Shown here one piece after another: positions 27,988 to 55,917 of a stretch of DNA of 64,000 bases (position 1 is its first letter; the number at the start of each line of letters is the position of its first letter). Below the pieces are notes generated by a model. It saw only the letters and a list, made by a program, of their open reading frames with translations. It searched no databases and had not been told where the DNA came from. The position numbers were made by a program, and so were the translations under genes. Source of the DNA: Pseudomonadota bacterium (lineage in GTDB: Bacteria; Pseudomonadota; Alphaproteobacteria; Rhodospirillales; Magnetospirillaceae); NCBI GenBank assembly GCA_021848545.1, contig JAJZUL010000002.1, positions 1 through 64,000 on the forward strand, in the 5' to 3' direction.

Positions 27988-28002
27988 TTAACGTCTGGTT
28001 AA
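27988..28002. promoter_or_regulatory. CtrA-type box upstream of comM
   Basis: TTAACGTCTGGTTAA is an exact TTAA-N7-TTAA, the full CtrA consensus of alphaproteobacteria. It lies in the 342-bp gap 27879-28220 between gshB and comM, 219 bp before the comM ATG. The gap is visibly AT-richer than its surroundings and also holds an 8-bp hairpin at 28012-28033. I saw no other exact full site in the intergenic regions I scanned. Confidence 0.55.
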
Positions 28003-28033: not shown

Positions 28034-28220
28034 GGTCTTCATTATCGAAAACCGTTGACGCGAATCGCGTCCGTCGAAAACGGCGAGACGAGTGGCTCCG
28101 CCGACGGCCCCGCTTCCCTGGATTCGCCCCTTATCACAACTGTATCGGCTTCCGGCGCTGGTCGCACCGCCATTGCGCGATTATGATTGCGCTCCGTCCC
28201 CGGCGAAAGATTCTCCCTTC

Positions 28221-29735
28221 ATGACCGCCCGCGTTGCCACCGTCGCTTTTTCCGGCATCGAGGTTCTCGACGTCGATGTCCAGGTGCAGATTTCCGGCGG
28301 ATTGGTGGCCTTTACCGTGGTCGGCCTGCCCGACAAGGCCGTCGCCGAAAGCCGCGAGCGGGTGCGGGCCGCCCTCAACGCCCTGGGTTTGGCGCTGCCG
28401 CCGAAACGAATCACCGTCAATCTGGCCCCCGCCGACGTGTTGAAGGAAGGCAGCCATTTCGATTTGCCCATCGCCGTCGGTCTGCTGGTGGCCATGGGAA
28501 TCCTGCCCGCCGACGAGATGGCCCGCTACACCATCCTGGGCGAACTGGGCCTGGACGGCTCGCTGGCCCCGGTGGCCGGCATCCTGCCCGCCGCCATCGC
28601 CGCCAATGCCAGCGGGCGCGGCCTGATCTGCCCGGCCGCCCAGGGCGGCGAGGCGGCCTGGGCCGGCGGCGAGGAGGTTTTGGCGCCGGGCTCGCTGCTG
28701 GCCCTGATCAATCATTTCAAGGGCACCCAGGTGCTGACCCCGCCGGTGCCGCGACTGGCCGAGGATGACGAGCGTCTTCCCGATCTGAAGGACGTCAAAG
28801 GGCAGGAAACCGCCAAGCGCGCCCTGGAGGTGGCCGCCGCCGGCGGTCACAATCTGCTGATGGTGGGTCCGCCGGGCTCGGGAAAATCGATGCTGGCCGC
28901 CCGCCTGCCCGGCCTGTTGCCGCCGTTGTCGCCGCCGGAGGCGCTGGAAGTCAGCATGATCCATTCGGTGGCCGGGCAACTGGCCGACGGGCGGCTTTTG
29001 CGGCGACGCCCGTTTCGCGACCCCCATCATTCCGCTTCCGTCGCATCGGTGGTGGGCGGCGGTCAGCGGGCGCGGCCGGGGGAAGTGGCGCTGGCCCATC
29101 TGGGGGTTCTGTTCCTGGACGAACTGCCCGAATTCGCCCGCGGCGTGCTGGAAGCCCTGCGCCAGCCCCTGGAAACCGGGCGGGTCAGCATCGCGCGGGT
29201 CAATGCCCATGTCACCTATCCGGCGCGGGTGCAGTTGGTGGCGGCCATGAATCCCTGCCGCTGCGGCCATCTCGACGATGCCGCCATCGCCTGCGCCCGG
29301 GCGCCCAAATGCGCCGCCGACTATCAGAACCGCATTTCCGGCCCCCTGTTCGACCGCATCGATCTTCATGTCGATGTGGGCGCGGTCAATCCCGCCGATC
29401 TGGCCCTGCCGCCGCCGGCGGAAGGCTCGGCGGACGTCGCCGCCCGCGTCGCGGCCGCCCGCCGGCGCCAGACCGAGCGCTATGAGGGGCTGGGCGTTCG
29501 CTGCAATGCCGAAATCGACGGCGAAATCCTGGAAAAATTCGCCGCCCCCGATGCGGAAGGCCGCGCCTTGCTGACGGAAGCCACCGACCGCATGCGCCTG
29601 TCGGCCCGGGGCTATCACCGGGTATTGCGGGTGGCCCGCACTCTGGCCGATCTGGCCGGCGCGGACGCCATCGGCCGCATCCATATCGGCGAGGCCCTGT
29701 CCTATCGGCGCCTGCGGCCGGGGGCGACCGGATAG
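28221..29735 (+). CDS. comM: ComM/YifB-family Mg-chelatase-like AAA+ ATPase
   Basis: A 504-residue YifB/ComM protein. The N-terminal ChlI-like domain starts RVATVAFSGIEVLDVDVQVQ and has VVGLPDKAVAESRERVRAAL. Walker A is GPPGSGKSM near residue 215. Walker B is LFLDELPEF near residue 295, with RQPLETG following. The C-terminal domain holds MNPCRCGH and GPLFDRIDLHVDV. In naturally competent bacteria ComM is a helicase that drives branch migration during transformation. The start at 28221 leaves out an upstream 43-codon extension with no homology. Confidence 0.93.
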   Translation: MTARVATVAFSGIEVLDVDVQVQISGGLVAFTVVGLPDKAVAESRERVRAALNALGLALPPKRITVNLAPADVLKEGSHFDLPIAVGLLVAMGILPADEMARYTILGELGLDGSLAPVAGILPAAIAANASGRGLICPAAQGGEAAWAGGEEVLAPGSLLALINHFKGTQVLTPPVPRLAEDDERLPDLKDVKGQETAKRALEVAAAGGHNLLMVGPPGSGKSMLAARLPGLLPPLSPPEALEVSMIHSVAGQLADGRLLRRRPFRDPHHSASVASVVGGGQRARPGEVALAHLGVLFLDELPEFARGVLEALRQPLETGRVSIARVNAHVTYPARVQLVAAMNPCRCGHLDDAAIACARAPKCAADYQNRISGPLFDRIDLHVDVGAVNPADLALPPPAEGSADVAARVAAARRRQTERYEGLGVRCNAEIDGEILEKFAAPDAEGRALLTEATDRMRLSARGYHRVLRVARTLADLAGADAIGRIHIGEALSYRRLRPGATG

Positions 29736-41193: not shown

Positions 41194-42102
41194 TCACTTG
41201 CCCAGGCGCGACAGCAGATCGTCGAGCTGTTCGAGGCTGGCGAAGGTGATGGTCAGGTCGCCGCGGCCGCCATTGGCGCGGATGGCGACCTTCATCCCCA
41301 AACTGGCCGTCAGATCCCGTTCCAGGGCGACGGTGTCGGCATCGCGGGGCGGCGGTTGCGGATGGCCGGTTTCCTTGGGTTTCAGCGTGCCGTTCACCAG
41401 CTTTTCGGTCTGCCGGACATTCAGCGCCCGGTCCACCACTTCGCGGGCCAGACCTGCGGGATCGGTGGCGCCGAGCAAGGCGCGGGCGTGCCCCGCCGTC
41501 AATTGCCCCTGCTCCACCATGCTCTTGACCGAATCCGGCAAGGCCAGAAGCCGCATCATATTGGCGACATGGCTGCGGCTTTTGCCCACCGCCTTGGCCA
41601 ATTCCTCCTGGGTATGGCTGAATTCGTCGATCAGGCGACGATAGCCGTCGGCCTCCTCCAGGGGTGAAAGGTCCTGGCGTTGCAGGTTTTCCACCAACGC
41701 CACTTCCAACGCCTCGCGATCGGTCAGCGGCCTGACGATGGCCGGAACCTCGTGAAGCTGAGCGCGCTGCGCCGCCCGCCAGCGCCGTTCGCCGGCGATG
41801 ATCTCGAAAGCGCCGGCATCCTCGGGATGGGGCCGCACCAGAAGCGGCTGAAGGATGCCTTTTTCACGCACCGACGCCACCAGATCGTCGATGGAATCCT
41901 CGTCGAAACGGCGGCGCGGCTGATAGCGCCCCGGCCGCAGAGTCTCGATCGGTATGGATTTCAGCCCATGGGCCTGTTCCAGGGTGGCGACCGCCACCGC
42001 CCCGTCCGAAGTCGGCGCCGTCACCGTCGGCGTGGCCGCGCCGACATCGCCCAACAAAGCCGACAGACCACGGCCGAGATTGCGTTTCTTGGTCTCAGCC
42101 AC
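41194..42102 (-). CDS. parB: Chromosome partitioning protein ParB
   Basis: A 302-residue ParB/Spo0J, a CTPase clamp that loads at parS and spreads. The N-terminus RNLGRGLSALLGD is the ParA-contacting tail. The CTP-binding box is visible as GERRWRAAQRAQL near residue 104. ENLQRQDLSPLEEADGYRRLI leads into the helix-turn-helix (KAVGKSRSHVANMMRLLALP), and the C-terminal dimer domain ends LDDLLSRLGK. It lies 5 bp after parA. Two parS sites lie 1.4 and 3.3 kb upstream, at the mnmG ends. Confidence 0.97.
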   Translation of the reverse strand: MAETKKRNLGRGLSALLGDVGAATPTVTAPTSDGAVAVATLEQAHGLKSIPIETLRPGRYQPRRRFDEDSIDDLVASVREKGILQPLLVRPHPEDAGAFEIIAGERRWRAAQRAQLHEVPAIVRPLTDREALEVALVENLQRQDLSPLEEADGYRRLIDEFSHTQEELAKAVGKSRSHVANMMRLLALPDSVKSMVEQGQLTAGHARALLGATDPAGLAREVVDRALNVRQTEKLVNGTLKPKETGHPQPPPRDADTVALERDLTASLGMKVAIRANGGRGDLTITFASLEQLDDLLSRLGK

Positions 42103-42107
42103 GGTTC

Positions 42108-42923
42108 TTACGCCCCCGTCAACGCGTCGCGTTCCCGCTTCAGCACTTCGCTGGCGAGATGAATATAGGCCTCGGCGCCGGAACTTTTCACGTCATAGAG
42201 CAGAACCGGCTTGCCGTGAGAGGGGGCCTCGGAAATGCGCACGTTGCGGGGAATCACCGTTTTGTACACCTTGTCGCCAAAAAAGCCGCGAACGTCGGCG
42301 GCCACCATATCGGAAAGATTGTTACGCTTGTCGAACATGGTCAGCACGATACCGTGCAGCTCCAATCCGGGATTGAAGGTCTGCTTGACCCGTTCGATGG
42401 TCTTGACCAGATGGCTGACCCCCTCCAGGGCGAAAAACTCGCACTGCAAAGGCACCATCACCGCATGCGCCGCCACCAGAGCGTTCAAGGTCAGCAGATT
42501 GAGCGATGGCGGGCAATCGATCAGGACGTAATCGTAGCCGGTGACGGTCGCCAGCGCGTCGCCCAACCGGGATTCGCGGCGCGGCGCGTCCACCAGTTCG
42601 ATCTCGGCGCCCGACAGATCGACGCCGGAGGTGACGATGGACAGACCCGGTATGTCGGAGGGCCGCACCGCCTCGGCCAAGGTCGCCTCGCCGATCAGCA
42701 CATGATAGGACGTCACTTCGCGCGACGCCCGATCGATGCCCAATCCCGTGCTGGCATTGCCCTGGGGATCGAGATCGACCAGGAGAACCGTCTTGCGGGT
42801 GGCGGCCAGGGCCGTGGCCAGATTGATGGCGGTGGTGGTCTTGCCGACGCCGCCCTTTTGATTGGCGATCGCCAGGATGCGGGTGGCGGTCGCGGGGGCG
42901 TTGCTGTCGCTAGGCTCGTCCAC
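42108..42923 (-). CDS. parA: Chromosome partitioning ATPase ParA
   Basis: A 271-residue Walker-type ATPase (Soj/ParA) that moves ParB-parS complexes. The deviant Walker A KGGVGKTTTAINLA is near residue 21, LLVDLDPQGNAST near 48, the Walker B-region LIDCPPSL near 130, and LTMFDKRNNL near 190. There is no N-terminal DNA-binding extension, as expected of a chromosomal type Ib ParA. It overlaps the end of rsmG by 14 bp. Confidence 0.97.
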   Translation of the reverse strand: MDEPSDSNAPATATRILAIANQKGGVGKTTTAINLATALAATRKTVLLVDLDPQGNASTGLGIDRASREVTSYHVLIGEATLAEAVRPSDIPGLSIVTSGVDLSGAEIELVDAPRRESRLGDALATVTGYDYVLIDCPPSLNLLTLNALVAAHAVMVPLQCEFFALEGVSHLVKTIERVKQTFNPGLELHGIVLTMFDKRNNLSDMVAADVRGFFGDKVYKTVIPRNVRISEAPSHGKPVLLYDVKSSGAEAYIHLASEVLKRERDALTGA

Positions 42924-43521
42924 GGCGTACCTCTTCGAGATCGAGGATAAGGCCCGACGGGTCGGTAATGGACCGGGTCCGACGGCAGGTCATCATCCAA
43001 TCTTTCGCCGCCTCGGTCAATTCGTCTTCGGCGCCGGCCCCTTTGAGAAACAGGCAATGTCCGCCGGGCGCAAGGTGGCGGTCGGCCCAGGGCAGAAGTT
43101 TGGCCAAGGGCGCCAAAGCGCGGGCGGTGACGATGTCGGCGCCGAGCGGCGAGACTTTTTCGATGCGCTCGGTATGCACCGTGATTTCGGTGCCGGTGGC
43201 CCGTGCCGCTTCGCGCAGAAACGCCGCCTTGCGGCTGTCACTCTCGATCAGGTGGGGATCGGGAGCGCCGAGAATGGCCAGGACCAGTCCGGGAAAGCCG
43301 GCGCCGGAACCCAGATCGACCAGGCGGTGGGCGGTGGGCGGCAATAGCGGATAAAGCTGCCAGGAATCCAGCATATGGCGACGCCAGAGATCGGGGATCG
43401 TGTTGGGACCGACCAGATTGATGCGCTGTTGCCAACGGATCAGAAGGTCGGCATAGACGGTCAGGCGCTCCATGGGTTCGGCGCCGAGGCCGGTGCGGGT
43501 CCGAAAGTCTTCGGGAATCAT
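42910..43521 (-). CDS. rsmG: 16S rRNA (guanine-527-N7)-methyltransferase
   Basis: A 203-residue RsmG (GidB). NLVGPNTIPDLWRRHMLDSWQL is the family start. The SAM loop VDLGSGAGFPGLVLAIL is near residue 70, and TARALAPLAKLLPWA near 133. It methylates G527 of 16S rRNA; loss gives low-level streptomycin resistance. It sits between mnmG and parA as in most alphaproteobacterial origin regions, with a perfect parS site 25 bp upstream of its start. Confidence 0.97.
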   Translation of the reverse strand: MIPEDFRTRTGLGAEPMERLTVYADLLIRWQQRINLVGPNTIPDLWRRHMLDSWQLYPLLPPTAHRLVDLGSGAGFPGLVLAILGAPDPHLIESDSRKAAFLREAARATGTEITVHTERIEKVSPLGADIVTARALAPLAKLLPWADRHLAPGGHCLFLKGAGAEDELTEAAKDWMMTCRRTRSITDPSGLILDLEEVRRGRA

Positions 43522-43545: not shown

Positions 43546-43561
43546 TGTTTCACGTGAAACA
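43546..43561. promoter_or_regulatory. parS site 1 (perfect)
   Basis: TGTTTCACGTGAAACA matches the ParB-binding consensus at 16 of 16 positions. It lies in the 46-bp gap between mnmG and rsmG. Confidence 0.95.
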
Positions 43562-43567
43562 CCGTAT

Positions 43568-45460
43568 CTAGGGGTCCTGACGCCCGCTCACGCCGCCGCG
43601 ACGGACGTATCCCAGCAGCGCCGCCAGGGCCGCCGGGGTTATACCCGGAATGCGCCCCGCCGCCCCCAGACTCGCCGGCCGCGCCGCGCTCAATTTCTGG
43701 CGGATTTCCGTCGATAACGACCCGATCGCCCCGTAATCCAGATCCTTCGGCAAAGCCAGGGATTCCTCCCGCCGATAGCGGGCGATATCCGCCTCCTGCC
43801 GGCCCACATACCCCTGATACCGCCCCTCGATGGCGAGGCGGTTGAGAACATTGCCGTCGATGTCCCCGATTTCCGGCCAGATCGATACCAGCCGGTCGCG
43901 ATCGCAATCCGGATAGGCCAGCAGATCCCAGGCGCTGCGCGCCACCCCGTCGAGATTGACCGCGATCCCCGCCTCTCTCAGGCGGTTGGGCGACGCCCGC
44001 AGCGCCAGCAACCGCTCCCGCCCCTCCGCCAGCCGTTCGGCCATGGCGGTGAAATGCCGTTCCCGTTCCCCGCCCACCACGCCCAAGGCGCAGCCCCGCC
44101 CCGTCAGGCGCAGATCGGCGTTATCTGCCCGCAAGGTCAGACGATATTCCGCCCGCGAGGTGAACATCCGATAGGGCTCCGCGGTCCCCCGCGTCACCAG
44201 GTCGTCGATCATCACCCCGATATAGGCCTCGCCCCGATCCCAGGTCACGGGCTCGGAACCACCGGCGCGCCGCGCCGCGTTCAGCCCCGCCACCAATCCC
44301 TGACCCCCCGCTTCCTCATAGCCGGTGGTGCCGTTGATCTGACCGGCCAGAAACAATCCCCGCACCGCCTTGCTCTCCAACCCATGGGTCAGGGCGCGGG
44401 GATCGACGTAATCATATTCGATGGCATAGCCGGGGCGCAGCATCACCGCCCGCTCCAGGCCGGGAATGGTGGCGATCATCTTTTCCTGGATCTCGGCCGG
44501 CAACGACGTGGAGATGCCGTTGGGATAGATTGTGGGATCATCGAGCCCTTCCGGCTCCAGAAAAATCTGATGACGCTCCTTGTCGGCGAACCGCACCAGC
44601 TTGTCCTCGATGGACGGACAATAGCGCGGACCGACGCTTTCGATCCGCCCCGAATACATCGCCGACCGATGGAGGTTGTCACGGATCAGCTGGTGGGTCC
44701 GCCCGCTGGTGAAGGTGATTCCGCACCGGATTTGCGGCACCTCGATTCGATCGGTGAGATAGGAGAACGGAACCGGCGGATCGTCGCCGGCCTGCATCTC
44801 CAATCCCGACCAATCGATGGTCCGGCCATCCAGCCGCGGCGGCGTTCCGGTTTTCAATCGCCCCAAGGGCAGGCCCAGCCGGTCCAGGGTCGCCGACAAA
44901 CCATAGGCGGGGGCGTCCCCCATGCGACCCGCCGGCCAGCGGCGATCCCCGCAATGGATCAATCCCCGCAGGAACGTCCCGGTGGTCAACACCACCCCGC
45001 CGCAAGCGATCCGCCGGCCATCCGCCAGCACGATACCGGCCACCGTATCCTGATCAAGGATCACGTCCTCGACGGTTCCGGCCACCAGGGTCAGACCCGA
45101 CTGCCGGCTCAACAGATCGCCCATGGCGGCGCGGTACAGGGCGCGGTCGGCCTGGGCGCGTGGGCCATGCACCGCCGGCCCCTTGCTGAGGTTGAGCATG
45201 CGGAACTGAATGCCGGCCCGATCGATGGCCCGGCCCATCACGCCGTCCAGGGCGTCGATTTCCCGGACCAACTGCCCCTTGGCCAGACCGCCGATCGCCG
45301 GATTGCACGACATTTCGCCGATAGTATCCAGACGTTGGGTCACCAACAGGGTGTCGGCCCCCATGCGCGCCGCCGCCGCCGCCGCCTCGCACCCGGCATG
45401 GCCGCCGCCGATCACCACCACATCCGCCTTGCGGTCCCAATCCGGTTTCACGTGAAACAT
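43568..45460 (-). CDS. mnmG: tRNA uridine-34 carboxymethylaminomethyl synthase MnmG
   Basis: A 630-residue FAD protein (GidA) that, with MnmE, adds a carboxymethylaminomethyl group to wobble uridine 34. The FAD loop [22 protein letters not shown] is near residue 14. [30 protein letters not shown] and [24 protein letters not shown] are clear, and the insertion and C-terminal helical domains follow. The first five codons overlap a parS palindrome (MFHVKP), so the coding start and a ParB site share sequence. Confidence 0.98.
45444..45459. promoter_or_regulatory. parS site 2 (15 of 16)
   Basis: GGTTTCACGTGAAACA differs from the parS consensus only at the first base. It overlaps the first codons of mnmG, 1.9 kb from site 1. 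Confidence 0.85.
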
Positions 45461-49557: not shown

Positions 49558-50007
49558 ATGCCTCAACTGGCCTTCAATACCCCGATGGGTCCTCTCGCCA
49601 TTGCCGAAGAGGATGGCCGTATCGTCTCCGTCGATTGGGGATGGCCGGCGCGATCCGAGGAAACGCCTCTTTTGTGTCGGGCCCGCGATCAATTGGACCT
49701 TTATTTCACCGGCGATTCCGCGGGCTTCGATCTTCCCCTCGACCCGCCGGGCACGGCCTTTCAGCGCCGGGTATGGCAGGACATGGTCCGTATTCCGTTC
49801 GGAACCGTTCGCACCTATGGCGACCTTGCCGCCGCGCTGGGCACATCACCCCGCGCCATCGGCCTGGCCTGTGGCCGCAATCCCCTTCCCATCCTCATCC
49901 CCTGTCACCGGGTCATCGCCGCCGGTGGGCATATCGGTGGCTATTCCGGTCTTGAGGGTGTAAGCACCAAGCGGTATCTACTCAATCTGGAAGGTATTTA
50001 TTTGTGA
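49558..50007 (+). CDS. ogt: Methylated-DNA-protein cysteine methyltransferase
   Basis: A 149-residue O6-alkylguanine repair protein. The helix-turn-helix TVRTYGDLAAALGTSPRAIGLA and the active-site sequence NPLPILIPCHRVI with acceptor Cys at about residue 116 are intact. GGHIGGYSGLEGVSTKRYLL closes the domain. There is no AdaA domain, so it is the constitutive Ogt type. It follows the DUF255 gene by 26 bp and may be co-transcribed. An imperfect 11-bp hairpin follows at 50025-50058. Confidence 0.95.
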   Translation: MPQLAFNTPMGPLAIAEEDGRIVSVDWGWPARSEETPLLCRARDQLDLYFTGDSAGFDLPLDPPGTAFQRRVWQDMVRIPFGTVRTYGDLAAALGTSPRAIGLACGRNPLPILIPCHRVIAAGGHIGGYSGLEGVSTKRYLLNLEGIYL

Positions 50008-50024
50008 TACGCCGTATCGCAAAA

Positions 50025-50058
50025 CAGCAATCTTTAACTCAATCCTAAAAGATTGTTG
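50025..50058 (+). terminator. AT-rich hairpin after ogt
   Basis: CAGCAATCTTT (50025-50035) pairs with AAAGATTGTTG (50048-50058) at 10 of 11 positions plus one G-T pair. It has no T-run. The half-site TTAA-N7-CTAA at 50033-50047 falls inside. Confidence 0.35.
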
Positions 50059-50113
50059 ATGTATAAAGACCACAGCGCCTGAGGCGCCTCGCTCCCACAT
50101 TCGACCAAGATAC

Positions 50114-50560
50114 ATGCGCCAAGATCGCCGCCTTCGCATCAAACGCATCCTGATCGTATCCAGCATTATCTGGATGGTCGCCGTAACCTCGGTGGTGCTT
50201 CTGACCCTGCCGCGGCAAGCGACCTTGACCATGGAATCACCGCAAATTCAGCGTGAACTCGCCCGCGATTGCTCGGGAACGTTCAAGCAGCGTTTCCGCT
50301 GCAAGCAGACCATCATTCTGAATACCAGCCAGCGAACCTTCAGCGATCTCGCCCTACGGCTGCTGGCGGTGGTGGCGGGACCGATCGCGGCTGCGGTCTA
50401 TTTCGTCCGCTATTGCCGGCCCGACCCGATTCAGCCCCGCCCGGCGACCCCATCCGCACCCGACGACATGTCATGGAAAAAAGCGGCGGAACAGCGCATC
50501 CACCAGCCGAAATCGGCTGGCGACGAAGACGATTCGTCCGATCCTCCCCCGTTGTGGTGA
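50114..50560 (+). CDS. Uncharacterised two-helix membrane protein
   Basis: A 148-residue protein I do not recognise. The N-terminus is basic (RQDRRLRIKR), followed by a hydrophobic helix at about residues 12-32 (ILIVSSIIWMVAVTSVVLL). A short periplasmic-type loop holds two cysteines (ARDCSGTFKQRFRCKQ). The second helix is at about 80-98 (LALRLLAVVAGPIAAAVYFV), and a Pro/Asp-rich tail follows. The two cysteines could form a disulfide. It stands alone between ogt and the convergent rho, with strong terminators behind it. Confidence 0.6.
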   Translation: MRQDRRLRIKRILIVSSIIWMVAVTSVVLLTLPRQATLTMESPQIQRELARDCSGTFKQRFRCKQTIILNTSQRTFSDLALRLLAVVAGPIAAAVYFVRYCRPDPIQPRPATPSAPDDMSWKKAAEQRIHQPKSAGDEDDSSDPPPLW

Positions 50561-50606
50561 GATTCGGACCAATCTGCCATCACGCTCTGATGTATTGATT
50601 AATACC

Positions 50607-50637
50607 AAATCCCGATGAGAGTGACTCATCGGGATTT
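50607..50637. terminator. Terminator hairpin 1 between the small membrane gene and rho
   Basis: Perfect 12-bp arms (50607-50618, 50626-50637) around a 7-base loop. On the minus strand it is the second hairpin after rho. On the plus strand it follows the small membrane gene. Confidence 0.65.
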
Positions 50638-50654
50638 GAGCGAAACCCGCTCGT

Positions 50655-50690
50655 GATCGGGTCGCGTCGCTGGTGCGATTCGACCCGATC
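50655..50690. terminator. Terminator hairpin 2 after rho
   Basis: Perfect 10-bp arms (50655-50664, 50681-50690) enclose an inner 4-bp stem with loop TGGT. It begins 10 bp after the rho stop on the minus strand. Both hairpins together isolate rho from the plus-strand genes. Confidence 0.65.
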
Positions 50691-50699
50691 AAATCCGGG

Positions 50700-51956
50700 C
50701 TAGCTGTTCATCGCTTCGAAGAAATCGTTGTTGTTCTTCGAATGCTTCAGCTTATCCACCAGGAATTCCATCGCATCCACCACGCCCATGGGCATAAGGA
50801 TGCGCCGCAGCACCCACATCTTGGACAGGGTCGATTTCTCGACCAGCAATTCCTCCTTGCGGGTTCCCGACCGGGTGATGTCGATGGCCGGGAAAGTGCG
50901 CTTGTCCGACAATTTCCGGTCCAGGATGATTTCCGAGTTACCGGTTCCCTTGAATTCCTCGAAGATCACCTCGTCCATACGGCTGCCGGTATCGATCAGC
51001 GCCGTGGCGATGATGGTCAGCGATCCGCCTTCCTCGATATTGCGGGCGGCGCCGAAAAACCGCTTGGGCCGCTGCAAGGCGTTGGCGTCGACGCCGCCGG
51101 TCAGAACCTTGCCCGAGCTGGGTACCACCGTGTTATAGGCGCGCGCCAGACGCGTGATCGAATCCAGCAGGATGACCACGTCGCGTTTGTGCTCCACCAA
51201 CCGCTTGGCTTTTTCCAGAACCATCTCCGTCACCTGGACATGGCGCGAAGCCGGTTCGTCGAAGGTGGAACTGATCACCTCGCCCTTCACCGAACGGGCC
51301 ATATCGGTGACTTCTTCCGGCCGTTCGTCGATCAACAGAACGATCAGATACACTTCCGGCTGATTGGCGGAAATGGCATGGGCGATGTTCTGCAACATCA
51401 CCGTCTTGCCGGTGCGGGGCGGTGCCACGATCAGGGCGCGCTGTCCCTTGCCCAGGGGCGCCACCAGATCGATGACCCGGGTGGTCAAATCCTTGGAACC
51501 GGGGCTGTCGATTTCCAGATGCAGCCGCCGATCCGGATAAAGCGGGGTCAGATTGTCGAAATTGATCCGATGCCGCACATTTTCCGGCGGTTCGAAATTG
51601 ATCGAATTGACCTTCAGCAGCGCGAAGTAACGCTCGCCATCCTTGGGCGCCCGGATCTGGCCCTCCACCGTGTCGCCGGTGCGCAGGCCGAAGCGGCGGG
51701 CCTGGCTGGGACTGACATAGATATCGTCCGGACCCGGCAGATAATTGGCTTCCGGGCTGCGCAAAAACCCGAATCCGTCTTGAAGGATCTCCAAAACGCC
51801 ATCGCCGTAAATCGGCGTATCGTTGTCTGCCAACTGCTTGAGAATGGCAAACATCATATCCTGCTTACGCAGGGTGCTTGCGTTCTCAATCTGTAATTCT
51901 TCCGCGAAAGACAACAATTCCGCTGGCGTTTTTTTCTTAAGATCTTGGAGATGCAT
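50700..51956 (-). CDS. rho: Transcription termination factor Rho
   Basis: A 418-residue hexameric RNA helicase. The start [20 protein letters not shown] at 51956 gives the standard length. The RNA-binding cold-shock fold ([33 protein letters not shown]) is near residue 60. The ATPase has Walker [15 protein letters not shown] near 180, and [13 protein letters not shown] near 210. A TTGACA promoter lies about 150 bp upstream. In the conserved alphaproteobacterial order it is the fourth gene from the origin on this side. Confidence 0.98.
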
Positions 51957-52101
51957 GAGTGATGTCCGTATCAACCGTTGTCCGGCCGCCAGCTACGCAC
52001 GATTTCCTTTGGGCACGCCCTAAGGAGCGGATGAAAATCCGGCGGGGATATCAACGTGTCTCGGGATGGGGGCTTCGACAGGCCCAAGCGACTTTTTCTC
52101 A

Positions 52102-52130
52102 CCTTTAGCCAAAGGACCGGGCGCTGTCAA
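52102..52130 (-). promoter_or_regulatory. Probable rho promoter
   Basis: On the minus strand, TTGACA (52130-52125) and TAAAGG (52107-52102) are 17 bp apart in the 214-bp gap upstream of rho. The leader is about 150 nt, which fits autoregulation of rho by early termination, seen in other bacteria. The rest of the gap shows no named feature. Confidence 0.45.
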
Positions 52131-52170
52131 ACGCCAATATCACGAAAGTTCCAAGCCCCGATCCAAAAAA

Positions 52171-52608
52171 TCAAAACGGCTTCACCACCACCAATATGAC
52201 GATCCCGATCATCAGAAGCGTCGGTATCTCATTGGCTATGCGATAAAAGCGCTGACTATGGCGGTTTCGGTCGGCGGCGAAATCGTTTTTCCACCGCATC
52301 ATCGCCCAATGGCTCGCGGTCAACAAAACCACCAGAACCAATTTGACATGCAACCAGCCAAAGCGGAAATCACCGCCGATCGTCGCCATACTGAGGCCCG
52401 CGATCCAGGCGACGACGGCCGCCGGCGTCATGATGGCGTTCATCAACCGCCGTTCCATGATCTTGAAAGTCTCGGAGGCCTGTGATCCCGGCTCGACCCC
52501 GCAATGATACACGAACAATCGCGGCAGATAGAGCAGCCCCGCCATCCATGAAATCACCGCGATCACATGCAAGGCCTTCAGCCACGGATACCATGCCGCC
52601 ATCCTCAT
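52171..52608 (-). CDS. hemJ: Protoporphyrinogen IX oxidase HemJ
   Basis: A 145-residue HemJ (UPF0093), a four-helix membrane protein that oxidises protoporphyrinogen. WLKALHVIAVISWMAGLLYLPRLFVYH holds the conserved His and Arg near residues 12-30. WLHVKLVLVVLLTASHW has the second His pair near residue 85, and RIANEIPTLLMI ends the family core. The ATG at 52608 overlaps the hemH stop as ATGA; a longer start lies inside hemH. It acts between hemE and hemH. Confidence 0.94.
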   Translation of the reverse strand: MRMAAWYPWLKALHVIAVISWMAGLLYLPRLFVYHCGVEPGSQASETFKIMERRLMNAIMTPAAVVAWIAGLSMATIGGDFRFGWLHVKLVLVVLLTASHWAMMRWKNDFAADRNRHSQRFYRIANEIPTLLMIGIVILVVVKPF

Positions 52609-53606
52609 GTTCCCCTTACCGAACAGGAAAGGCCGGCGCGAGCGCAACCATCGCATCCCATGGCCGGATTTCCCGCCAATTCGATCAAACCGGAGATGAA
52701 AGCGGGATCGGTTCCCACCGTGGGTACCCGAATATAGCCCGGTACGCCCATCCGGTCGGCCCGTTCGCGATATTCCATGTCCAATTCCACCAAAGTCTCC
52801 GAATGTTCGGAAACGAAAGCGATGGGGCAGATCACCACGGCAACGCCATCGGCCGCCGCCCGTTCCAATTCATCGTCCAGGGACGGGGCCAGCCATTTCA
52901 TCGGCCCGACCCGGCTTTGATAACAGACCGCCCAATCGCCGTCTTCCAGACCGATCTTTTCCGCCACCGCCACCGCCGTCTGCCGGATGTGGACCGGATA
53001 GGGGTCCCCACGATCGACGATTTTTTGCGGCAGGCCATGAGCGGAAAACAGCACCCGCGGTTTTCCGTGGGTCCCGGCCTGGCCCAATCCCCGCCGGACC
53101 CCGTTGGCTATCGCCGTGATCAGTCCCGGCAAACGCGGATAGCAGCAGACTTTGACCGTCGCCGCCGTCAAACCGGCTTTGCGCGCCGCCTTGGTCCAAA
53201 GCGCCACCGACGATCCGGTGGTGGTGGTGGAAAATTGCGGATAAAGCGGCAACAGAACGATGCGGTCCGCGCCCCATTCCTTGATTTCGGTCACCGCCTG
53301 TTCGGTCAGGGGATGCCAATACCGCATGGCGATGACCACACGGTGATCCGGCCCCAAGCCGGCCGCCAGCGCTTGCGCCTGCGCTTGCGTCTGCTCCAAC
53401 AGCGGTGACTTGCCGCCGATTCGATTATAAATGGCGCGCGCCACCGGCGCCCGCCGGCCGGAAATGATCTTCGCTATCAGCCATCGCAACGGCAGTGGTA
53501 AAGCGATGATGGCCGGATCGAAAAACAGGTTGAACAGAAACGGCTCGACCGCCGCGCTGTTATCGGGACCGCCCAGATTGAACAGGACAATGGCGGTTTT
53601 CGACAT
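52605..53606 (-). CDS. hemH: Ferrochelatase
   Basis: A 333-residue HemH inserting ferrous iron into protoporphyrin IX. AIVLFNLGGPDNSAAVEPFLFNLFFDP is the family start. VIAMRYWHPLTEQAV is near residue 92. The metal-site His is in VLFSAHGLPQKIV (about 187), and the conserved CPIAFVSEHSETLVELDMEY is near 275. The C-terminus has CX2CX5C (MGCDGCARAGLSC), which suggests a [2Fe-2S] cluster as in some other ferrochelatases. It follows hemE by 6 bp. Confidence 0.97.
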   Translation of the reverse strand: MSKTAIVLFNLGGPDNSAAVEPFLFNLFFDPAIIALPLPLRWLIAKIISGRRAPVARAIYNRIGGKSPLLEQTQAQAQALAAGLGPDHRVVIAMRYWHPLTEQAVTEIKEWGADRIVLLPLYPQFSTTTTGSSVALWTKAARKAGLTAATVKVCCYPRLPGLITAIANGVRRGLGQAGTHGKPRVLFSAHGLPQKIVDRGDPYPVHIRQTAVAVAEKIGLEDGDWAVCYQSRVGPMKWLAPSLDDELERAAADGVAVVICPIAFVSEHSETLVELDMEYRERADRMGVPGYIRVPTVGTDPAFISGLIELAGNPAMGCDGCARAGLSCSVRGT

Positions 53607-53612
53607 CGGTCT

Positions 53613-54647
53613 TCACGCCCGCCACGCTTTGATCCGTTCGGCCAACCGGGCCACATGTTCCGGCGGCGTGGCCGGTACGATGCCGTGGCCGAGGTTGAAA
53701 ATGAACGGTCCGCGACCCAGCACCGCCAGAATGCGATCAATGGCGCGGTCCATGGCCTCGCCTCCGGCCACCAGCAACAACGGATCCAGATTGCCCTGGA
53801 CGGTGCAAAGCGGTTGCAGCTCTTTCGCCGCCCAATCCAGGGGCACGGTGATGTCCAGGCTCACGCCGTTGACGCCGGTTTCGATCACGTAATCCCGGTA
53901 CAGCACGCCGGCGCCGCGGGGAAATCCGATGACCGGCACGCCGGGACGATCCCGATGAATGCGCGCCACCAAAGCGCGGGTGGGCGCGATCACCCATTGC
54001 CGGAAATCCTCCTCCGGCAGGGCGCCGGCCCAGGTGTCGAACAGTTGCAACGCTTCCGCGCCGGCATCGATCTGGGCGATCAGATAGGTCGCGGTGGCCT
54101 CGACCACCAGATCGATCAGCCGTTTGAAGGTTTCGGGATCGCTCCACATCAACTGTTTGATCCTGGCGAAATCGCGCGATCCGCCGCCTTCGACCATATA
54201 GGTGGCAACGGTCCAGGGCGCGCCGGCGAATCCGATCAGGGCGGTTTCCGGCGGCAGGGCTTTCGATAATTGCCGTACCGTTCGCACGACCGGAGCGAGA
54301 CGGTCGAGCAATCCCTCGGTATTGAGACCATCCAGATCCCTTGCCGAGCCAATCGGCGGTAACGCCGGTCCTTCGCCCTCGCGAAAGGAAAGCGGCTGAC
54401 CCAGGCCATGGGGAATCACCAGGATGTCGGAAAACAGGATGGCCGCGTCCATATGGTAGCGGCGCAACGGCTGGAGAGTGACTTCGGTGGCGAAATCCGG
54501 CGCATAGCACAGATCGAGAAAGCTGCCGGCTTCGGCGCGAAGGGCGCGATATTCGGGGAGATAGCGACCAGCCTGGCGCATCAGCCAGAAGGGGGGCCGG
54601 TCGAGGGTTTCGCCCGCCAGGGCGCGCAGGAACGGCTTTGCGGTCAC
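53613..54647 (-). CDS. hemE: Uroporphyrinogen decarboxylase
   Basis: A 344-residue HemE, decarboxylating uroporphyrinogen III to coproporphyrinogen [25 protein letters not shown] with its binding Arg residues is near residue 19. The catalytic Asp is in [12 protein letters not shown] near 74. [19 protein letters not shown] follows. It is the first gene left of the origin and reads away from it, starting hemE-hemH-hemJ. hemE next to the origin is the Caulobacter arrangement. Confidence 0.98.
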
Positions 54648-54777
54648 GTGTCTCTCCGATGGGGTGCCGTCCTCTCATACAAGGTTTGGAAAGGGGAAGA
54701 AAGGAGGGTGTTGTAGTGAATCCCTGTGGAATGCGGGGATTGGCGTTTTTCCCCGGTTCGTCCTCGAAACATCCCCT

Positions 54778-54786
54778 TGTGGGTAA
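54778..54786 (-). promoter_or_regulatory. DnaA box, 8 of 9
   Basis: Minus-strand TTACCCACA, one mismatch to TTATCCACA. It lies two bases from TTATCCCGG (54789-54797) on the other strand, making an imperfect back-to-back pair. Confidence 0.6.
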
Positions 54787-55023
54787 AGTTATCCCGGCCT
54801 GTGTATGAAAGCTGAAAAAGCGGCGGTTTTCCCAAGGTTCATCGGCGAATGCGGTTTCGGGCGCGACTGGGGAAAATCTGTGCGGTTCCGGATGCTTCAC
54901 GATATTGTCGATGACAAGGCCCCTTTTGTCCCCCTGCGGGTGGAGATGGGCAAATCCGCAGCGGTATCGGGGGGCTTTTTCACCGGGATCGACGAAGGGG
55001 CCGGTTATCACCGTTTTTGGGAC

Positions 55024-55032
55024 TTATCCCCA
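55024..55032 (+). promoter_or_regulatory. DnaA box, 8 of 9, with W-box core
   Basis: TTATCCCCA, one mismatch to TTATCCACA. It contains TCCCCA and is 58 bp before the ppsR ATG. Confidence 0.6.
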
Positions 55033-55089
55033 CAGGCGTTGACGGGAACCGATCAACGCCGCCCTCCTCGCAATTTGGTATCATCCCCC

Positions 55090-55917
55090 ATGCGCCAGAT
55101 TCATCTCCATCTCGTTTCCGACGCGACCGGCGAGACCGTGACCGGTCTCGCCCGCGCCTGCATGGTGCAGTTCGAGGGCGTTGACATCGTCCAGCACGAT
55201 TGGTGGCTGATTCGCAGCCGGCCCCAGGTGGAACGGGTGATCGCCGGGCTGGAGGCCGATCCCGGCATCGTCTTGTTCACTCTGGTCGACAATGCGGTGC
55301 GTAAACATCTGGAAGAGGCCTGCCATCGTCTTCAGATGCCGTGCATTTCCGTGCTCGATCCGGTGATGGCGGCGCTGGGCAACTATCTTCAGGTCGAGAT
55401 GAGGGCCACGCCCGGCCGGCAATATCAGCTCGATGCCGGGTATTTCGCCCGTATCGACGCCATGCATTTCACCCTGGCTCACGATGACGGCCAGATGCTG
55501 GACGACATCGATAACGCCGACATCGTTCTGGTCGGCGTATCGCGCAGCTCGAAAACCCCGACTTGCATGTATCTCGCCTACCGCGGACTTAAATGCGCCA
55601 ATTATCCCCTGGTTCCCTCCGTCCCTCTGCCGGCGGTGCTGATCGCCGCGAAACGGCCGCTGATCGTCGGTTTGACCCGTGACGCCCGCAGCCTGTCCGA
55701 CATCCGCCGGGCGCGGCTGAAATTTCTCAACCAGACCGAGGATTCCGATTACGCCGCCCTGGACAAGGTTCATGAGGAAGTCCAGGAGGCCCGTCGCCTG
55801 TTCACCCGCATGAATTGGCCGGTGGTGGACGTGACCCGTCGATCGATCGAGGAGGCTTCGGCCGCCATCGTCCAGCTCCATCAGGATCGCTTGTTGGAAC
55901 GGGGGCGGAAATCTTGA
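55090..55917 (+). CDS. ppsR: Pyruvate,phosphate dikinase regulatory protein
   Basis: A 275-residue DUF299/PSRP protein, a bifunctional ADP-dependent kinase and Pi-dependent phosphorylase that switches PPDK or PEP synthase. IHLHLVSDATGETVTGLARA is the start. The P-loop-like VLVGVSRSSKTPTCMYLAYRG is near residue 150 and GLTRDARSLSDIRRARL near 195. The ATG at 55090 drops a 95-codon extension that runs through the origin. It is the first gene right of the origin, equal to the RP001/CC_0001 position. Confidence 0.95.
   Translation: MRQIHLHLVSDATGETVTGLARACMVQFEGVDIVQHDWWLIRSRPQVERVIAGLEADPGIVLFTLVDNAVRKHLEEACHRLQMPCISVLDPVMAALGNYLQVEMRATPGRQYQLDAGYFARIDAMHFTLAHDDGQMLDDIDNADIVLVGVSRSSKTPTCMYLAYRGLKCANYPLVPSVPLPAVLIAAKRPLIVGLTRDARSLSDIRRARLKFLNQTEDSDYAALDKVHEEVQEARRLFTRMNWPVVDVTRRSIEEASAAIVQLHQDRLLERGRKS

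Follow-up and report, generated by a model that had tools for sequence, protein, structure and literature searches.

The hemE-ppsR intergenic region as the predicted chromosomal origin in a Magnetospirillum-like alphaproteobacterium

The gap between hemE and ppsR at 54648-55089 can be assigned with high confidence as the site where a Magnetospirillum-like alphaproteobacterium starts to replicate its chromosome, with DnaA-box-like sites, predicted ParB/parS segregation and no recognisable full CtrA site. It is very probably oriC because of its enrichment in DnaA-box-like sites, its matrix score, the parS sites, the conservation within the family and the GC skew of relatives. The sequence-only reading had proposed a probable chromosomal origin between the two genes, and this proposal now has strong support: the boxes are conserved, parS sites are present, and a relative with a single contig has its skew minimum here. 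An origin is thereby placed in a draft genome (3.17 Mb, 85 contigs), as a well-supported further case of the known hemE-ppsR origin type. The window, the whole stretch of DNA analysed, is the first 64 kb of contig C14 (150,517 bases).

The setting hemE/COG1806 is that of the Caulobacter and Rickettsia origins (PMC1914354). For an origin of this type, some 400 bp are expected between the two divergently transcribed genes; here hemE and ppsR are divergent and exactly 442 bp apart. On the hemE side it is flanked by rho-hemJ-hemH, on the ppsR side by maf-aroE-coaE-dnaQ, and parAB-rsmG-mnmG-mnmE lies about 8-13 kb away. This gene order, already read from the sequence before, was confirmed by NCBIfam models, which also identified aroE, coaE, dnaQ, mnmE and mnmG; maf and parA are identified at the '-like' level, the models for the Maf-like gene scoring under their curated cut-offs. 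The origin is very probably located where it is expected for the alphaproteobacterial class. The central features are:

54648-55089, no strand: predicted oriC, hemE-ppsR divergent intergenic region (gene calls, DnaA-box-like sites, relatives, skew)
53613-54647, minus strand: hemE, uroporphyrinogen decarboxylase, left boundary gene (TIGR01464, 410 bits, above cut-off)
55090-55917, plus strand: ppsR (COG1806/DUF299/'RP001'), right boundary gene (NF003742, 325 bits, above cut-off)
52605-53606: hemH (NCBIfam)
52171-52656: hemJ (NCBIfam)
50700-51974: rho (NCBIfam)

As expected for an origin of this type, the GC content of the gap is lower than that of the window (0.563 vs 0.652), a contrast that is modest because the genes directly to the left (50,000-54,647) are also low, at 0.597. 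A search of the whole window against Rfam at curated thresholds gave no match.

TTATCCMCA is the consensus of the DnaA box, and sites were counted by their mismatches to it and compared with dinucleotide shuffles of the gap; site coordinates are gap positions plus 54647. With at most one mismatch the gap contains three sites (0.25 expected) and with at most two mismatches 11 (2.57 expected), counts that none of 300 shuffles reached, so that the several one- or two-mismatch boxes claimed earlier are borne out. The first three comprise one exact match (55024) and two with one mismatch (54778, 54868). Across the whole window no enrichment was seen (16 sites vs 11.9 expected), and one-mismatch sites in the genome number 582, compared to 561 for the reversed control pattern. 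Exact sites occur 23 times genome-wide, no two of them within 5 kb of one another. The sites of the gap are:

55005-55013, plus strand: DnaA-box-like TTATCACCG, two mismatches, first of a 19-bp-spaced pair (matrix from relatives, gap position 358; pair spacing)
55024-55032, plus strand: DnaA-box-like TTATCCCCA, second of the pair and top-scoring site of the gap (motif scan)
54868-54876, minus strand: DnaA-box-like TTTTCCCCA (motif scan)
54778-54786, minus strand: DnaA-box-like TTACCCACA (motif scan)
54789-54797, plus strand: weaker box-like TTATCCCGG (matrix scan, gap position 142)
54747-54755, plus strand: weaker box-like TTTTCCCCG (matrix scan, gap position 100)
54725-54733, minus strand: degenerate counterpart of the family's hemE-side box, TGTGGATAA in many relatives and TGTGGAATG here (alignment)

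The gaps of the 29 other family members were used to train a position matrix, which was applied to 6284 overlapping 445-bp segments (708,354 bases, 22% of the genome). The gap ranked first with a score of 108.9, the best other locus reaching 55.0, and its box cluster is denser than elsewhere in this scanned 22%. One rival cluster by count, C4:39472-39936, was set aside: it consists mostly of a repeated GC-rich element with several copies of TTATCCTCA, all in one orientation, and lies outside the best 25 segments of the matrix scan. The TCCCCA-type motifs noted earlier are present, with two copies against 0.64 expected, but they are not significant alone (137 of 1000 shuffles reach this number).

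We propose that DnaA, encoded on another contig, would load on this cluster of non-consensus boxes, namely the plus-strand 19-bp pair beside ppsR and the minus-strand boxes in the hemE-side and middle parts of the gap, and would then open an AT-richer stretch of the gap. As there is no recognisable full CtrA site, the timing of initiation would probably be set by the level and activity of DnaA and not by CtrA occlusion.

The gap was compared with those of relatives. PpsR matches were found in 55 of 61 genomes; the family set comprises 30 loci, our own and 29 from the 33 further genomes of the family in which PpsR was matched. The family includes Magnetospirillum sp. 64-120 and an uncultured Telmatospirillum, whose records have the 140-bp core of the hemE-ppsR gap that was compared in common with family loci (L161 with L029, L163 with L035). 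At the order level 20 of 21 matched genomes were taken, and for the class a non-random sample, mostly one per family, of 60 of 99 matched ones. Divergent hemE was found in 56 of these 60 (55 after removal of one duplicate). The setting is not universal, since 44 of 143 class-sample genomes gave no PpsR match to this query. Ten of 190 loci were dropped, as no divergent hemE stood beside ppsR in the stretch covered (some stretches end near the gene), and the duplicates L161, L162, L163, L164, L176 and L274 were removed before gaps were counted. This left 174 distinct gaps: 30 from the family, 20 from the order, 69 from titled records and 55 from the class sample. When named genomes were scanned with the protein alone no relative was found, whereas a scan based on an alignment was successful.

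All 30 family loci have divergent hemE and ppsR, with gaps of 363-545 bp, and each gap carries at least two DnaA boxes (127 in total vs 6.0 expected). In the family alignment a conserved hemE-side box is followed by CGGGGAT, and on the ppsR side stands a pair of the type TTATCCCC[AG] and then TTATCCACAGG. Pairs were sought on the plus strand in the last 130 bp, with no more than two mismatches in either site and no more than one in at least one member. A distance of exactly 19 bp was found beside ppsR in 22 of 30 family gaps, which is to be read as conservation and not as 22 independent cases because the members share descent; in two further gaps the distance is 20 bp. Outside the family, 3 of the 105 further gaps from the Rhodospirillales side of the PpsR tree show the 19-bp spacing, compared with none of the 39 from the opposite side. 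Our own pair, TTATCACCG at 55005 and TTATCCCCA at 55024, ends 57 bp before the ppsR start codon, unlike 12 of the 24 pair-bearing family gaps, where no more than about 10 bp separate the second box from the ppsR start as mapped. The pair offers a concrete, testable model of a DnaA-only origin. Seven of the 135 Rhodospirillales-side gaps (L177, L186, L188, L196, L230, L232, L251) have no one-mismatch DnaA box; in these, which include two Reyranella and one Defluviicoccus, the origin may have moved or the boxes diverged.

The presence of a CtrA gene in the genome (NF045991, 409 bits against a cut-off of 350) leaves a small probability that CtrA gates this origin through half-sites or a divergent motif unmatched by TTAA-N7-TTAA, since a missing motif is no proof of missing binding. 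Against such gating, the gap contains neither TTAA-N7-TTAA nor TTWW-N7-TTWW and in this respect does not resemble a CtrA-gated origin of the Caulobacter type. The earlier statement that it lacks TTAA and a full CtrA site is true of the motif. We dropped the absence of TTAA as meaningful in itself, as it says little alone when 253 of 1000 shuffles of the gap also lack it. At least one TTAA is present in 16 of the 30 family gaps, though not in our own, which would suit gating through half-sites; perfect full sites, however, are found in 0 of 30 (0.07 expected), and sites with at most one mismatch number two against 2.4 expected. Moreover, Magnetospirillum magneticum and Rhodospirillum centenum were reported to grow unaffected after loss of ctrA (PMC8116508). 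An origin timed probably by DnaA and not by CtrA remains the preferred reading. Genome-wide, the full TTAA-N7-TTAA occurs 8 times, compared to 22 for the reversed control pattern.

Perfect CtrA sites were counted in all 174 gaps, with shuffles giving the expected numbers, and were sorted by the PpsR tree (FastTree, midpoint-rooted), whose main split has weak support. On the side that holds most Hyphomicrobiales rows, 7 of 39 gaps carry 8 such sites together (0.83 expected), and on the side with the Rhodospirillales 3 of 135 gaps carry 3 (2.12 expected). The Fisher value of 0.0013 between the two sides is descriptive because the split was picked after the tree was seen. Given these counts and those of the family, absence of a CtrA site is the usual state among these relatives and, as judged by motif, is not special to this lineage. 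The earlier suggestion that the lineage starts replication without direct CtrA gating thus fits the lack of a full site, but no peculiarity of the lineage can be read from it. It is conceivable, at somewhat less than an even chance, that the Magnetospirillum-type family has its own CtrA-free layout with the head-to-tail 19-bp box pair beside ppsR, that CtrA sites entered the hemE-ppsR origin separately on the Hyphomicrobiales branch, and that our own genus has weakened boxes and extra hairpin sequence between the pair and ppsR.

Full CtrA-type sites were seen in the predicted-origin gaps L231, L237, L238, L252, L253, L285 and L299, and such gap sites occur in Chelatococcus, Microvirga (two), Methylobacterium and four other genomes. 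In four of the Hyphomicrobiales-side sites both halves are of the TTAAC form (Chelatococcus, one of the two in Microvirga, and two other genomes). The only full CtrA-type site of the window, TTAACGTCTGGTTAA at 27988-28002 (0.01 expected), is followed after about 90 bp by an ORF (28092-29735) that encodes Mg-chelatase (ChlI) domains and that we take to be ComM-like. A search for GcrA (PF07750) gave no match in the genome; the control matched Caulobacter but also, oddly, Sulfolobus.

Caulobacter crescentus Cori (hemE/CC_0001) is bounded by the same genes and is similar in length, at about 400 bp (404 in PMC1914354), and its DnaA sites are described as weaker than the usual consensus (PMC4468827), as the mismatches suggest for ours. 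It differs in its five CtrA sites and G-boxes (PMC4468827), whereas our gap has no CtrA motif and carries, next to ppsR, two TTATC-type boxes at 19-bp spacing. The Rickettsia prowazekii origin (hemE/RP001) has the same flanks (PMC1914354), but CtrA sites are reported there (PMC4468827, PMC1914354) and its AT content is 82.55% (PMC1914354). CtrA sites are predicted in many origins of Wolbachia, Anaplasma, Ehrlichia and Rickettsia, with none given for Ehrlichia ruminantium (PMC1914354), and a review states that most of the other alphaproteobacterial origins show no such sites (PMC4468827). Brucella CtrA was reported not to bind the origin (PMC2877005). The chromosomal origin of Sinorhizobium meliloti, likened here by description and not by sequence, is similar in that CtrA is in the cell, yet neither a CtrA motif nor bound CtrA is described at the origin (PMC4433202); it differs in that attempts to delete ctrA failed or gave mutants with poor growth (PMC8116508), and the species belongs to another order. 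Published reports on Rhodospirillales already point to an absence of CtrA gating (PMC8116508), and CtrA is reported to serve motility in the group (PMC4433202, PMC8116508). The present case suggests that what is conserved in this type of origin is its gene setting together with the DnaA boxes, and not CtrA control.

Segregation genes and candidate parS sites lie on the hemE side of the gap:

43546-43561, no strand: parS, perfect TGTTTCACGTGAAACA (only perfect match in the 3.17-Mb genome)
45444-45459, no strand: parS, one mismatch (motif search)
41194-42102, minus strand: parB (TIGR00180, 210 bits, above cut-off)
42108-42923, minus strand: parA-like ATPase (NF041546, 111 bits, under its cut-off of 180)
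42910-43521: rsmG (NCBIfam)

parAB is also found near Cori of Caulobacter crescentus. The perfect and the one-mismatch parS are 9-11 kb from the gap, and a single further match at two mismatches or fewer lies on C66. Because the reversed control outnumbers parS at this threshold (5 matches per strand vs 3), weight is put only on these two sites, which are 2 kb apart and beside parAB. ParB bound at them would segregate the new origins.

Cumulative GC skew was determined in two single-contig family genomes, G027 and G018, from 40 samples of 20 kb each; positions of minima are good to tens of kb only, because they are interpolated with denser sampling beside the gap. In G027 the minimum at 3,390,000 coincides with the gap at about 3,389,000, the maximum at 1,185,000 lies near the antipode of the gap (1,206,102), and 37 of 40 samples agree in sign. 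Strand-balanced third-codon-position skew agrees (minimum 3,395,000; 35 of 39 signs). G018 gave a weak signal, with minima at 2,685,000 and, for the third position, 2,655,000 for a gap at about 2,678,500, and sign agreement in 30 and 25 of 40 samples, respectively. Its maximum at 4.37 Mb is not opposite the gap (antipode 0.40 Mb), and a balanced-replichore fit slightly favours 2.42-2.48 Mb (r 0.46) over the gap (r 0.43). Our own genome, an 85-contig draft, allows skew to be read on contig C14 but gives no ordered whole-genome skew; on C14 a stretch of strongly negative skew runs between about 43 and 54 kb, after which the cumulative curve stays level and reaches a slightly lower value near 66 kb. 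A minimum at the gap, the check named by the sequence-only reading, is clear in G027 and weak in G018.

It is very improbable that the gap is a mere divergent promoter region where DnaA regulates hemE and ppsR while replication starts elsewhere, e.g. near dnaA: both genes need promoters, one of which could be the conserved hemE-side block, and dnaA is on another contig, C77, but the sampled skew minimum of G027 is at the gap, the perfect parS is on C14 with none at two mismatches or fewer on C77, and the 20 kb of C77 around dnaA hold no three-box cluster. In Rhodospirillales dnaA is described as not conserved near ori (PMC8116508). Two adjacent stretches that match the DnaA model in its C-terminal portion only were seen outside dnaA (G000:C27:4491-5309), and another on C65.

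Within the predicted origin, the alignment shows one further element:

54678-54707, no strand: conserved block beside hemE, TACAAGGTTT...GAAAG (alignment)

This block may serve as an unwinding element or as the hemE promoter. In 20 of 30 family gaps, though not in our own, it contains the 40 bp with the highest AT content. TTATCCACA, present in 19 of 30 family gaps, is absent from our gap, which counts against the origin reading. A further point against is that our gap has no IHF site, a feature expected of this origin type, by the strict consensus WATCARNNNNTTR or the looser WATCAN5WTR of PMC1914354, and among the family gaps such sites occur in 1 of 30 and 4 of 30, respectively. Between the box pair and ppsR lies a hairpin, GCGTTGA...TCAACGC (55035-55066), within leader sequence that is absent from most of the aligned relatives listed; a 32-bp copy, 94% identical and on the opposite strand, is found at C4:25160-25191.
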